DNA of 64,000 nt from an uncultured Sutterella sp. (GTDB lineage: Bacteria > Pseudomonadota > Gammaproteobacteria > Burkholderiales > Burkholderiaceae_F): assembly GCA_949282745.1 (NCBI GenBank), contig CASDQM010000047.1, positions 372,001 through 436,000 of the forward strand. The letters are read 5' to 3'. Shown here piece after piece: positions 25,617 to 28,897 of this stretch. Made by a program: the position numbers and the translations under genes. Position 1 is the stretch's first letter. Every line of letters begins with the position of its first letter. Under the pieces are notes generated by a model. That model made no database searches and was not told the origin of the DNA. It was given only the letters and a program-made list of their open reading frames with translations.

Positions 25617-26561
25617 TTAAAGGCCGAATCCGTGCGAAGTGCTCGAGAGGAAGGCCTGAATGAGCGCGCCCGTCGTAAAGAAAAGCGCGAACTTCACTTC
25701 CAGAAGAACCGTCGCAAACATGGTTCCGTTGAGTTCTTCGTGGCGCTTCTTCGTGAGCTGCGGCGGCAGATGCAGGGCGTCCGCCAGCGTGAAAATCACG
25801 AGGAGGTACGGCCAGTAGGAAAGGTCGCGCAGCACCATGACAAGCACGAGGAAATACGGCAAGAGGAGCATCGCCTCGTAGAGCATGACGAAGAGCTTCG
25901 GCGGGCACACCACGGCGAGGGTGCGGCGTCCCACGCTCGCGTCATGGACGTGGTCGCGCCAGTTGTTCACGGCCAGCACGGCGGCCGCCACCGATCCCAG
26001 GGCCACGCCGAGCAGCACGGAATTGAAGGAGAGCGCACCGGCCTGCAGATAGTAGGTCCCGCACACGGCCGTGAGGCCGAAGAAGATCAGGACGACCAGC
26101 TCCCCGAAGGGCGTGTAGGCGATGGGCTTGGGGCCGCCCATGTAGGCGTAGGCCGCAAGAACCGAAGCGACGCCGACCGCGAGGAACACGATCCCGCCGT
26201 ACCAGACGAGCACGGCGGTGTTGAGCAGAGCCAAAAGGACGGCTCCGATGAGCGCGTAGCGCGCAGCCTTCATCGAAATCCAACCGTTCGCCGTCGCGCG
26301 GGGAAGTCCCCGGCGGTTGCCCTTCTCGAGCTTGCGCTGCGTGTAGCCGCGGTCGTTCTGCATGTTCGTGATGATCTGCATCAGCACGGCGATGGTGAGC
26401 GTGAAGAAGGCGACGTCCCAGTGAAAGCTGTGGTGTTCGCTCACGTAGAGGGAGAGCGAAGCGAGAACGGGCGCCACGGCAACGCCCCAGGTTTTCGGAC
26501 GCACGTAGGCGAGCCACGAAGCGAGCCGCCCCGGCGCCTTTTCGGTGTTTTGCGTTTGCAT
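25617..26561 (-). CDS. menA: 1,4-dihydroxy-2-naphthoate polyprenyltransferase
   Basis: MenA attaches the polyprenyl chain to dihydroxynaphthoate in menaquinone synthesis, in the inner membrane. The 314-residue product is a UbiA-superfamily protein with about eight helices. It has a MenA-type first Asp-rich region (MQNDRGYTQRKLEKGNRRG near 75-93) and second motif NNWRDHVHDASVGRRTLA near 195-212, plus the characteristic GELVVLIFFGLTAVCGTYYLQ-like loop near 150-170. I chose ATG 26561 because earlier starts overlap ybeD. It is four bases after ybeD in a dacA-like/ybeD/menA unit. It marks the organism as a menaquinone user. Confidence 0.87.
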   Translation of the reverse strand: MQTQNTEKAPGRLASWLAYVRPKTWGVAVAPVLASLSLYVSEHHSFHWDVAFFTLTIAVLMQIITNMQNDRGYTQRKLEKGNRRGLPRATANGWISMKAARYALIGAVLLALLNTAVLVWYGGIVFLAVGVASVLAAYAYMGGPKPIAYTPFGELVVLIFFGLTAVCGTYYLQAGALSFNSVLLGVALGSVAAAVLAVNNWRDHVHDASVGRRTLAVVCPPKLFVMLYEAMLLLPYFLVLVMVLRDLSYWPYLLVIFTLADALHLPPQLTKKRHEELNGTMFATVLLEVKFALFFTTGALIQAFLSSTSHGFGL

Positions 26562-26565
26562 TCTG

Positions 26566-26838
26566 TTAGAGAGCCACTTTGACCAGGGGGTGCGCCACGA
26601 CGCGGCGATAGAAGTCATCGAGCTGTTCGCGCGAATCCGCGAGCACGACGAGCGTCACGGACATGTATTTGCCGGTCCGGGAAAGGTTCGTCGAGGTACG
26701 GGCCGCGTCGAACTCCCGGAAGTGCCCGCCCGCCAGGGCATTCATCTCCGCCAGCAGCGCCTCGTCGTTCACGCCCATCACCTTGATGGGAAACTCCATC
26801 GGAAATTCCATCACTTCCTGTTTTTCTTGCATTTTCAT
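26566..26838 (-). CDS. ybeD: DUF493 (YbeD) family protein
   Basis: The 90-residue product has the DUF493 pattern: FPMEFPIKVMGVNDEAL near the start, then a helix, and a later strand SRTGKYMSVTLVVLADSREQLDDFYR leading to HPLVKVAL. The fold is a small ferredoxin-like domain; E. coli YbeD lies between dacA and lipB, and no biochemical role is settled. Here too it follows a dacA-like gene, with its ATG overlapping that gene's stop (ATGA). Confidence 0.88.
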   Translation of the reverse strand: MKMQEKQEVMEFPMEFPIKVMGVNDEALLAEMNALAGGHFREFDAARTSTNLSRTGKYMSVTLVVLADSREQLDDFYRRVVAHPLVKVAL

Positions 26839-27998
26839 TCCTCAGTGAGGCCGCCATCGTCGGTAACGGCCAGTAGTACGGTATCGCGCAGTTTCTGCCA
26901 GAACGAACCCTTCTCGAGCGACTCGAGCGCCACGACGGGGATCTTCTTGAAAATCTCTCCGTTGTACGTGAGGGTGAGCGTTCCCAAGACGTCCCCTTCG
27001 CGAACGGGCGCCATCAGGGGCGTGGGATGTTCCAGACGCAGCGACAGGGCGGAGAGCCCGTTGTCCATCAACTCTTCGCGCGAGAGCGTAATGTGAATTT
27101 CGTCGCGCACGGTATAGGCGAGTTCGGGACGATCCCCGCCGTACGCATGAAGGGTTCCGATCGAATCGCCGGGACGGTAGAGGGTGACGGTTTCAAACTG
27201 CCGCAGTCCGGCCTGCAGAGATTCCCCCAACGTGGAAACCAGCATCTTCCTCGAAGCCTGCGCGACGGAAACCGAAAGCAAACGGCGCACGGAGCCGTCG
27301 GGAAGCGGATTTTCCAAAAGGGCCGCGCCGCTCCAGTTTTTCTCCTCCCCGCCGATCACGAGTCCGCGGACGGTGCGATCGTTCGGAAGGACGACGTTTC
27401 CGTTCTTAAAACTGCGCTCTCCCGCCTTCACGTCGGCTTGCGACCACCAGCGCCTTGCCTCGGGGTACCGATTCCAGAAGCCTTCGATAAAGACCACCAT
27501 GTCTTTGGGCGACACGTTCGGGACCGGAAAGAGCGAAGACTCCTTTTTCTCGAGTCCCGAATCCTTCACGCCGGCCCCGCCCAAACTGGCGGCGAGCGCG
27601 GCGGCAAAGACCGTCTCGTCGGGAAAGAGCGCTCGAACCGCTTCGCGCGCCGCCCTTTCATTGCCCTGCGCCGCATAAGCGACGAGCAGGGTTTCATAAT
27701 CCACCGATTCGCCCTTCTTCAGGGAGAGGGGCGCTGCATGCGTCTCCGTCACGGTCAACGTATCCGTGAGGGAGAGCTTTCGGCGCTCAAGCTCGGAGAA
27801 CAATGCGTCGAGCACGACCAGGCGGTTGAGCGCCCCCACCGATGCGCGTTCGTCGGCCCGATCCTCGAGGATGGCCTGTCCGCTCACCAAGTCCACGAGC
27901 ACGCCCGATTGGGCCCGCGCGCACCAGGGAGTCAGGGCGAGGCACAGAAGTCCCAGCAGGGACAAAAGACGGGGAATCAGAAGTCTCCGAAGAGGCAT
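26835..27998 (-). CDS. PBP5/DacA-like protein with all catalytic motifs lost
   Basis: The 387-residue product has a signal peptide (helix about 5-22, cleavage near ARA at 29) and the whole PBP5 architecture: transpeptidase-like domain (about 32-265) and C-terminal beta domain (about 268-370). Colinear comparison with E. coli PBP5 puts ALNR (56-59) where SLTK should be, QGN (111-113) for SGN and VIG (214-216) for KTG. Thus the nucleophile Ser, its Lys, the second Ser and the KTG Lys are all gone. It should not hydrolyse D-Ala-D-Ala and may be a binding or scaffolding protein. The frame is open and coupled to ybeD, so it is not a decayed gene. Start 27998 is chosen for its signal peptide; ATG 28076 is immediately preceded by a -10-like TACAAT and is less likely. 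Confidence 0.8.
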   Translation of the reverse strand: MPLRRLLIPRLLSLLGLLCLALTPWCARAQSGVLVDLVSGQAILEDRADERASVGALNRLVVLDALFSELERRKLSLTDTLTVTETHAAPLSLKKGESVDYETLLVAYAAQGNERAAREAVRALFPDETVFAAALAASLGGAGVKDSGLEKKESSLFPVPNVSPKDMVVFIEGFWNRYPEARRWWSQADVKAGERSFKNGNVVLPNDRTVRGLVIGGEEKNWSGAALLENPLPDGSVRRLLSVSVAQASRKMLVSTLGESLQAGLRQFETVTLYRPGDSIGTLHAYGGDRPELAYTVRDEIHITLSREELMDNGLSALSLRLEHPTPLMAPVREGDVLGTLTLTYNGEIFKKIPVVALESLEKGSFWQKLRDTVLLAVTDDGGLTEE

Positions 27999-28076
27999 CG
28001 TTGTGAAAAGCGGAAATATGACAAAATGGACGGACACTTCCGTAGTCCGCGCAATGCGGAAAATCGGAAACTTCAT

Positions 28077-28111: not shown

Positions 28112-28897
28112 ATGCCGCAAACGACGGATTTTGCCGATGCGCTCCGACGGGCGTTGCTTCATGCCGAAATTTCGGTGGAATGCGTCGAAGAGACGGGCAG
28201 CACGAACGACGATCTGAAAGAGCGCATTCGAGAGCGTCCCCTTGCGCATCCGGTTCTGCGAACGAGCGAACGTCAGACCGCGGGACGGGGCACGAGAGGG
28301 AAATCCTGGAAAACGCCCCGCGAGTCCCTGCTTTTCACGCTGGCCCTTCCCTATGCGACGCAGGGTGACGAATGCGTCCGCCTGCCGATCGTCGTCGGCA
28401 TTTCCGTCGCGGAATCCCTGCAGCGCCTCGGCTATCCCGTGGCGCTGAAGTGGCCCAACGATCTGTGGCTCGCCGGCGGGAAAACGGGCGGCATTCTCTT
28501 TGAACAGCTCAACGGATGCGCCGTCATCGGCATCGGCATCAATCTCAACGCGGATCCGGGCGTCACGACGCAGGGCTGGCCGGTGCGTTCGCTTCGCGAT
28601 CGGGGGCCGCTGGTGCAGCGACGTTCCGCCGAAGCGGGCCGCATGCTCGGCGTCATCGTGCAGGATTTGCTCGACGCCCTCGGCGCCTTTCCCAAAACGC
28701 CCGTGCATTGTCTTCCGGCATTGTGGCGGGCGGTGGACGCCTTCTCCAACCGAAGCGTGCGTCTGTGCGCCCCCGACGGGCGCAACGCCGTGCAAGGCGT
28801 CGTCCGCGGCATTACGGAAGAGGGCGCCCTGTGCCTCGAAACCCAGGACGGGATGCGGATATTCCGAAACGGCAGTCTTTGCCCGACAGAACCATGA
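28112..28897 (+). CDS. birA: Biotin--[acetyl-CoA carboxylase] ligase
   Basis: It activates biotin as biotinyl-AMP and attaches it to the carrier protein of acetyl-CoA carboxylase. The 261-residue product has the ligase motifs TGSTNDDL near 30, GRGTRGKSW near 59-67 (the GRGRxGR loop), and KWPNDLWL near 113. There is no N-terminal helix-turn-helix, so it is a monofunctional ligase and not a repressor of biotin genes. It overlaps coaX by four bases (ATGA), the usual birA-coaX pairing in this group. Confidence 0.94.
   Translation: MPQTTDFADALRRALLHAEISVECVEETGSTNDDLKERIRERPLAHPVLRTSERQTAGRGTRGKSWKTPRESLLFTLALPYATQGDECVRLPIVVGISVAESLQRLGYPVALKWPNDLWLAGGKTGGILFEQLNGCAVIGIGINLNADPGVTTQGWPVRSLRDRGPLVQRRSAEAGRMLGVIVQDLLDALGAFPKTPVHCLPALWRAVDAFSNRSVRLCAPDGRNAVQGVVRGITEEGALCLETQDGMRIFRNGSLCPTEP

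Follow-up and report, generated by a model that had tools for sequence, protein, structure and literature searches.

Background

To our knowledge, the role of the C-terminal domain of PBP5 (DacA) apart from catalysis is an open question. A clade in which this domain, PBP5_C, is kept and catalysis is dropped, with graded intermediates and shortened variants, amounts to a natural domain-separation experiment.

Several studies in E. coli bear on what penicillin-binding proteins of this type do besides cutting peptides. An excerpt of PMC2909392 reports that the dead PBP5 variant S44G is no longer localised at midcell and fails to restore cell shape, and according to an excerpt of PMC4916385 the same variant worsens cell shape. 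For PBP7, the excerpted part of PMC11586513 states that midcell localisation requires the C-terminal helix and not activity. PBP6a (DacC) is described in excerpts of PMC4916385 and PMC5596342, both of which mutated its active-site serine S66, as a seemingly near-inactive DD-CPase in vivo that may protect pentapeptides. In addition, the structure entry 9a4z is titled as a YxkC-DacA model, which hints that DacA-type proteins have protein partners; no paper on this pairing was found in the openly licensed literature.

Inactive homologues are counted in a 2008 survey of serine proteases, which in its excerpted part covers PF00144/S12 and not S11 (PMC2605481), and a review of pseudoenzymes makes no mention of peptidoglycan (PMC10211241). 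In the openly licensed literature we found no description of a dead PBP5 orthologue in the titles and abstract openings among the matches listed. A search there for pseudoenzymes together with PBP5 or penicillin-binding proteins found nothing, and one for Sutterella peptidoglycan carboxypeptidases gave off-topic matches only.

Here we describe a PBP5-type gene in a 64,000 nucleotide stretch of DNA (the window) from an uncultured Sutterella sp. An earlier note, made from the letters of the window, had proposed that the encoded protein is PBP5-like and has lost all three catalytic motifs. We compared it with its orthologues in the family (67 sampled genomes) and with PBP5_C proteins from elsewhere in the Burkholderiales. 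Genera and families are given by our own labels (g1, which is Sutterella, g2 and so on; f17 and so on).

The PBP5 gene and its neighbourhood

The features of the locus are listed in Table 1. The gene is an intact open frame, as proposed, and lies on the minus strand, which the earlier note had not given; a second, longer in-frame ATG is present at 28076. The proposed signal peptide corresponds to a signal-peptide-like N-terminus, predicted from hydropathy (maximum over 12 residues 2.79) and a cleavage site placed by eye. The C-terminal beta domain is retained, with PBP5_C at 42.8 bits (Pfam cut-off 21.2), and Peptidase_S11 scores 12.2 bits, below its cut-off of 27.6. An HMM was built from 129 motif-intact PBP5s (125 of the order, four of genera g6 and g14); it covers residues 28-378, with E 1.7e-34 in a search of 36 sequences. 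The closest solved relative by sequence is P. aeruginosa PBP5 (4k91, E 7e-19).

Table 1. Coordinates of the PBP5/DacA locus in the window
Feature	Position	Strand	Basis or remark
menA-like UbiA prenyltransferase	25617..26618	minus	Pfam; overlaps ybeD
ybeD (DUF493)	26566..26838	minus	Pfam; 4-bp overlap with end of PBP5 gene
PBP5/DacA orthologue CDS, predicted dead, 387 aa	26835..27998	minus	intact open frame
C-terminal helix 366-379, possible membrane anchor	26862..26903	minus	model; amphipathicity not significant for the window protein alone
PBP5_C beta domain (PF07943), residues 268-363	26910..27197	minus	Pfam
Transpeptidase-fold domain, approximately residues 31-265, predicted catalytically dead	27204..27908	minus	HMM alignment and model
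Former KTG = V214-I215-G216	27351..27359	minus	HMM alignment
Former SGN = G112-N113-E114	27657..27665	minus	HMM alignment
Former SLTK = A56-L57-N58-R59	27822..27833	minus	HMM alignment
Signal-peptide-like N-terminus, residues 1-29	27912..27998	minus	hydrophobic core, then ARA-Q; cleavage site by eye
birA-like biotin ligase, divergent neighbour upstream	28112..28897	plus	Pfam

The company of ybeD and menA, also pointed out before, is confirmed by the two overlaps in Table 1. The dead gene adjoins ybeD in 31 of the 32 loci described below, and in the remaining one (G014) the contig ends within the gene. Upstream of the PBP5 gene, birA and/or coaX are found in most loci; for the four g4 loci G012-G015 these genes either lie downstream, were not found, or fall beyond the contig. 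In the three genomes of the sister genus g6, which have an active PBP5, the gene is likewise located upstream of ybeD, with one gene between them and birA and coaX further upstream. The window gene therefore occupies the same locus as the active DacA of g6. The contig carrying the g14 gene stops before ybeD.

The intervening gene was tested in one g6 locus (G028), where it is an Aminotran_4 gene (L098:2188-3261, minus strand); the 31 dead-gene loci that reach ybeD have no room for such a gene. On the other side, ybeD runs directly into menA in the window (25617-26838), as it does in the remaining loci of g1 and g2 and in four of g4. Five g4 loci, and those of g8, g16 and g17, have a gap of approximately 600-660 bases between the two genes, and the g8 gap (L120) contains a lipB-like LplA-B_cat gene.

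Catalytic motifs and predicted structure

All three motifs that define the active site are absent from the window protein in the HMM alignment, in line with the proposal. The SxxK nucleophile motif has lost both its serine (A56) and its lysine (R59), and KTG is replaced by VIG; here the alignment agrees with the earlier readings of ALNR and VIG. The loss of SGN also stands, whereas its reading as QGN is one residue off: the conserved Asp-Ala that follows SGN fixes the register (R115-A116), so the true counterpart is GNE at 112-114. The changes recur in relatives, since the three motifs are absent from 32 of 32 orthologues in six genera, and the loss is thus not a sequencing accident. What replaces SLTK varies by genus (ALNR, NTVL, DLVQ, PMLP).

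The only SxxK strings in the window protein are SLKK (92-95) and SLEK (360-363). Neither falls within the modelled helix 55-72, the expected place of the nucleophile, and no intact Ser-Lys pair was found in that helix. On sequence criteria the protein is a PBP5 orthologue outside the S11 enzyme definition. The label of S11 peptidase was dropped, as the motifs and the Pfam score both fail.

An AlphaFold2 model based on a 15-sequence alignment (pLDDT 83, pTM 0.77) matches PBP5 over both domains. PBP5 and PBP6 structures rank first, at 18-23% identity, and the best match is 4k91 (E 5.3e-28, TM 0.70/0.79). The predicted structure is consistent with the transpeptidase-like two-domain fold that had been proposed. 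It should be noted that 13 of the 15 alignment rows come from viral contigs and are distant, motif-intact relatives, so the model shows compatibility with the fold and not independent active-site geometry. A previous model from two sequences, the window protein and its relative on L032, reached a pLDDT of 42 and was set aside.

Distribution and ancestry within the family

A single PBP5_C gene was found in 36 of the 67 family genomes; the other 31, including all five of g15, gave no PBP5_C match. Among the more complete genomes, 24 of 39 encode a PBP5_C protein and 15 of 39 do not. All 36 matches score above the PBP5_C cut-off and none has an internal stop. The active site is kept in four of them, three from g6 and one from g14, which retain SxxK and KTG. 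In two g6 copies SAS replaces SxN; the motif rule used for the whole order required the N of SxN and scores these two as changed, whereas the rule used for states on the protein tree did not require it. In the remaining 32 all three motifs are gone: 11 in g1, six in g2, ten in g4, one in g8 and two each in g16 and g17. A scan of named genome contigs gave one relative, from an uncultured Sutterella sp. (L032), which is the closest named one (92% identity over the matched part).

A profile search of the 40 genomes without PBP5_C (31 from the family and nine from elsewhere in the order) gave matches in 33. No hidden dead copy was recognised among them, because none of the matches listed extends beyond position 270 of 391 and so none reaches PBP5_C.

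A gyrB tree was made by a quick method from 56 of the 67 family genomes and 12 outgroups, one outgroup row falling on the wrong side. Ten genomes without a match at the threshold were left off, as was G036, and the dead-gene genomes G012 and G059 are thus missing. On this tree 30 dead-gene genomes and seven without the gene form one branch of 37 rows (SH-aLRT 100), and g6 and g14 belong to the family's second main branch. The simplest account is a single ancient loss of the motifs in this clade followed by long retention. Its members without the gene are G044-G048 (g15), G051 and G035; as the PBP5_C match is missing in these, the protein is dispensable in some relatives. In the two g17 genomes (G063 and G064) the GyrB match covers residues 17-577 of an open frame of approximately 875 aa, which points to an insertion or to divergence of the C-terminal part.

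Motif loss across the Burkholderiales

Outside the family, 136 Burkholderiales genomes encode 141 PBP5_C proteins; 125 of these are motif-intact and 16 are missing one motif or more. All three are absent from four of the 16, and nine still have SxxK; for this reason, and because single losses may leave activity, we do not call all 16 dead. They are spread over seven families. In five of these, motif-intact proteins were sampled as well; in f17 and f23 none of the four members sampled is intact. On a protein tree with the motif columns masked, parsimony gives seven changes of state (six if at least two motifs must be lost), a count made unsure by long branches. Two of the genomes with a motif-loss copy (G144 and G182) have a second, intact PBP5_C copy. 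Genomes with a motif-loss copy are smaller, with a median of 2.25 Mb (n=16) vs 3.7 Mb (n=120; MWU p 2e-6, uncorrected for relatedness). In family f43 the protein of G108 has ALTQ, SAN and KAG and that of G187, from the same genus, is motif-intact; this within-genus loss is suited to comparison.

Selection and domain retention

Between the window gene and its orthologue in G060 omega is 0.221 (bootstrap 0.129-0.342), compared with 0.037-0.145 for seven neighbouring genes. By domain, the transpeptidase part has a value of 0.240 and the C-terminal part one of 0.151; their intervals overlap and there is no clear difference. Two other pairs gave 0.161 (G055/G052, dS 0.50) and 0.055 (G016/G018, dS 1.59 and near saturation), and motif-intact g6 pairs gave 0.095 and 0.136. 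NG86 was run on 12 pairs, six of which have no whole-gene omega (infinite dS) and one more a dS of 3.3. These values indicate purifying selection on the coding sequence, looser than on the neighbours. The label of pseudogene was dropped, as omega and the open frames speak against it. That the window protein is both dead and under selection is, in our judgement, very probable.

Similarity is higher in PBP5_C than in the transpeptidase domain for 51 of the 55 pairs within g1, for all 15 pairs within g2 and for all ten among g8, g16 and g17. Among motif-intact proteins of the order this holds for 68 of 7750 pairs, and for none of the six pairs within g6 and g14. The inversion is absent from g4, where the pairs divide evenly (22 of 45), and from the 16 motif-loss proteins of the order (7 of 120).

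We also asked how often the 32 dead proteins retain the ancestral residue. The rate is 8% at seven catalytic positions, 41% at 47 other transpeptidase columns with a conservation of 95% or more among active proteins and 76% at five PBP5_C columns of this kind, and retention is lower at the catalytic positions than at the other transpeptidase columns (p 0.0014). This comparison is drawn from the whole-genus family set only; the 16 order proteins had been selected for missing motifs, which makes their low catalytic retention partly a matter of definition.

The transpeptidase part is 28-42% shorter in three Sutterella genomes, with 149 (G058), 169 (G059) and 137 (G062) residues vs approximately 235. 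Their PBP5_C keeps 94-98 residues and alone passes its Pfam cut-off. The gyrB tree joins G058 and G062 as sisters (support 99), and a shared, retained reduction is therefore likely in these two.

The C-terminal tail of the window protein is not significantly amphipathic (moment p 0.32), and three of 33 tails reach p<0.05 singly. Combined over 33 of the 36 orthologues, which are mutually related sequences, the p value is 1e-5. The tails of G012 and G013 are just 13-14 residues long, and that of G014 is cut by the contig end.

Other wall enzymes of the window genome

Intact relatives elsewhere in the genome, which the earlier note had allowed for, were found. The single S11 match, which is above the cut-off, is PBP7-like and motif-intact (SITK/SDN/KTG); among NCBIfam models it scores best with the D-alanyl-D-alanine endopeptidase, at 221 bits against a cut-off of 294. 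The only S13 match passes the NCBIfam PBP4 cut-off and is also motif-intact (SSAK/SNN/KTG). An S13 match is present in 57 of the 67 family genomes.

Proposed role

We suggest, with moderate confidence, that the window protein is a non-catalytic envelope scaffold that works via its PBP5_C stalk. In brief, a syntenic DacA/PBP5 orthologue would have turned into a non-catalytic envelope protein, exported to the periplasm and presumably tethered by the C-terminal helix in most lineages. There it may make protein-protein contacts through the stalk and probably serves the remaining wall enzymes at the inner membrane as adaptor or spacer, while peptide trimming would be left to the PBP4-type and PBP7-like enzymes. 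The transpeptidase domain would be a passive body, partly shed by some Sutterella. We infer that the common selected core is export and the PBP5_C stalk, plus the C-terminal helix in most lineages. In favour of this reading are the purifying selection, the better retention of PBP5_C, the shortened Sutterella variants and the localisation of E. coli PBP7 by its helix. Counting against it are the absence of PBP5_C from 31 of 67 family genomes, the lack of inversion in g4 and in the 16 order proteins, an omega above that of the neighbours, the non-significant amphipathicity of the window protein's helix, and the failure of dead S44G to rescue shape in E. coli. The earlier note had offered a peptidoglycan sensor or a scaffold. 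Of these the scaffold fits better, and the sensor is weakened by the shortened transpeptidase domains: with this part reduced and below its Pfam cut-off in three Sutterella, pentapeptide sensing is unlikely as the shared function.

The dead domain could instead be a substrate decoy that binds pentapeptide stems uncut and shields them from active carboxypeptidases, as proposed for E. coli PBP6a, which is apparently inactive as a DD-CPase in vivo and may protect pentapeptides (excerpts of PMC4916385 and PMC5596342). Also in favour of a decoy, conserved non-catalytic transpeptidase columns are kept at 52% in g2 and 54% in g4. PBP6a, however, retains its serine, whereas S, K, SxN and KTG are all lost here in 32 of 32 proteins, and the truncated Sutterella domains also speak against shielding. 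We consider a decoy unlikely.

Slightly less credit still is due to slow decay, in which a redundant enzyme under relaxed selection is heading for loss and has no present function. Absence from 31 of 67 family genomes fits such a course, as do evolution faster than that of the neighbours (omega 0.22 vs 0.04-0.15) and the smaller genomes of motif-loss carriers in the order (median 2.25 vs 3.7 Mb, relatedness uncorrected), but omega is far below 1, all 36 genes are free of internal stops with PBP5_C above the cut-off, and for three out of four dead groups that were compared, decay is faster in the catalytic half than in PBP5_C.

That the protein is still an enzyme, with catalysis moved to other residues or beta-lactams bound in another way, is compatible with the modelled fold and yet very improbable: the modelled helix 55-72 has no SxxK, and no new shared catalytic site is seen because the SLTK replacements differ between genera. 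We give hardly any weight to a separate PBP5_C-bearing family placed at this locus by chance, for in spite of the 18-23% identity to the top PBP5/PBP6 structures the ybeD synteny is shared, birA/coaX lie upstream in most loci, and scores of the active-PBP5 HMM step down from 286-257 bits in g2 through 246-153 in g4 to 153-74 in g1 (525-491 bits in g6 and g14, whose proteins are part of the HMM).

Returning to the scaffold, a broader and more tentative reading, which we hold to be possible but rather doubtful, is that the PBP5_C stalk has an ancient, activity-independent PBP5 function that outlives catalysis. Motifs would then have eroded repeatedly in Burkholderiales and completely in the Sutterella clade, some species trimming the protein toward a stalk-only adaptor. 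Motif erosion is seen in the Sutterella family and, in one or more members each, in seven other families (seven parsimony changes on the protein tree); our estimate is lowered because nine of the 16 order proteins keep SxxK and the 16 show no inversion of constraint. In these gut bacteria, annotation as PBP5_C or 'DacA' need not mean a carboxypeptidase or a penicillin target.

Comparison with known systems

Dead cell-wall hydrolase folds that regulate active enzymes are known from the degenerate LytM proteins EnvC and NlpD. Their fold is unrelated to the PBP5-type fold, and the likeness to the window protein is one of analogy.

PBP7 (PbpG) is an S11 relative of the window protein; the PBP7-like S11 protein of the window genome is encoded by a separate, motif-intact gene without a PBP5_C match. 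E. coli PBP6a (DacC, 3it9) belongs to the same family as the window protein, but has an active-site serine and forms an ampicillin acyl-enzyme (title of entry 3ita), whereas the window protein is without all three motifs.

The closest likeness is to PBP5/DacA of E. coli and P. aeruginosa (1nzo and 4k91). The window protein differs from these in being without SxxK, SxN and KTG, in its 18-23% identity and in an S11 Pfam score below the cut-off. It resembles them in the predicted two-domain fold, which aligns over approximately 340-370 columns, in the signal-like N-terminus, PBP5_C and the modelled C-terminal helix, and it shares its ybeD locus with the DacA of g6.
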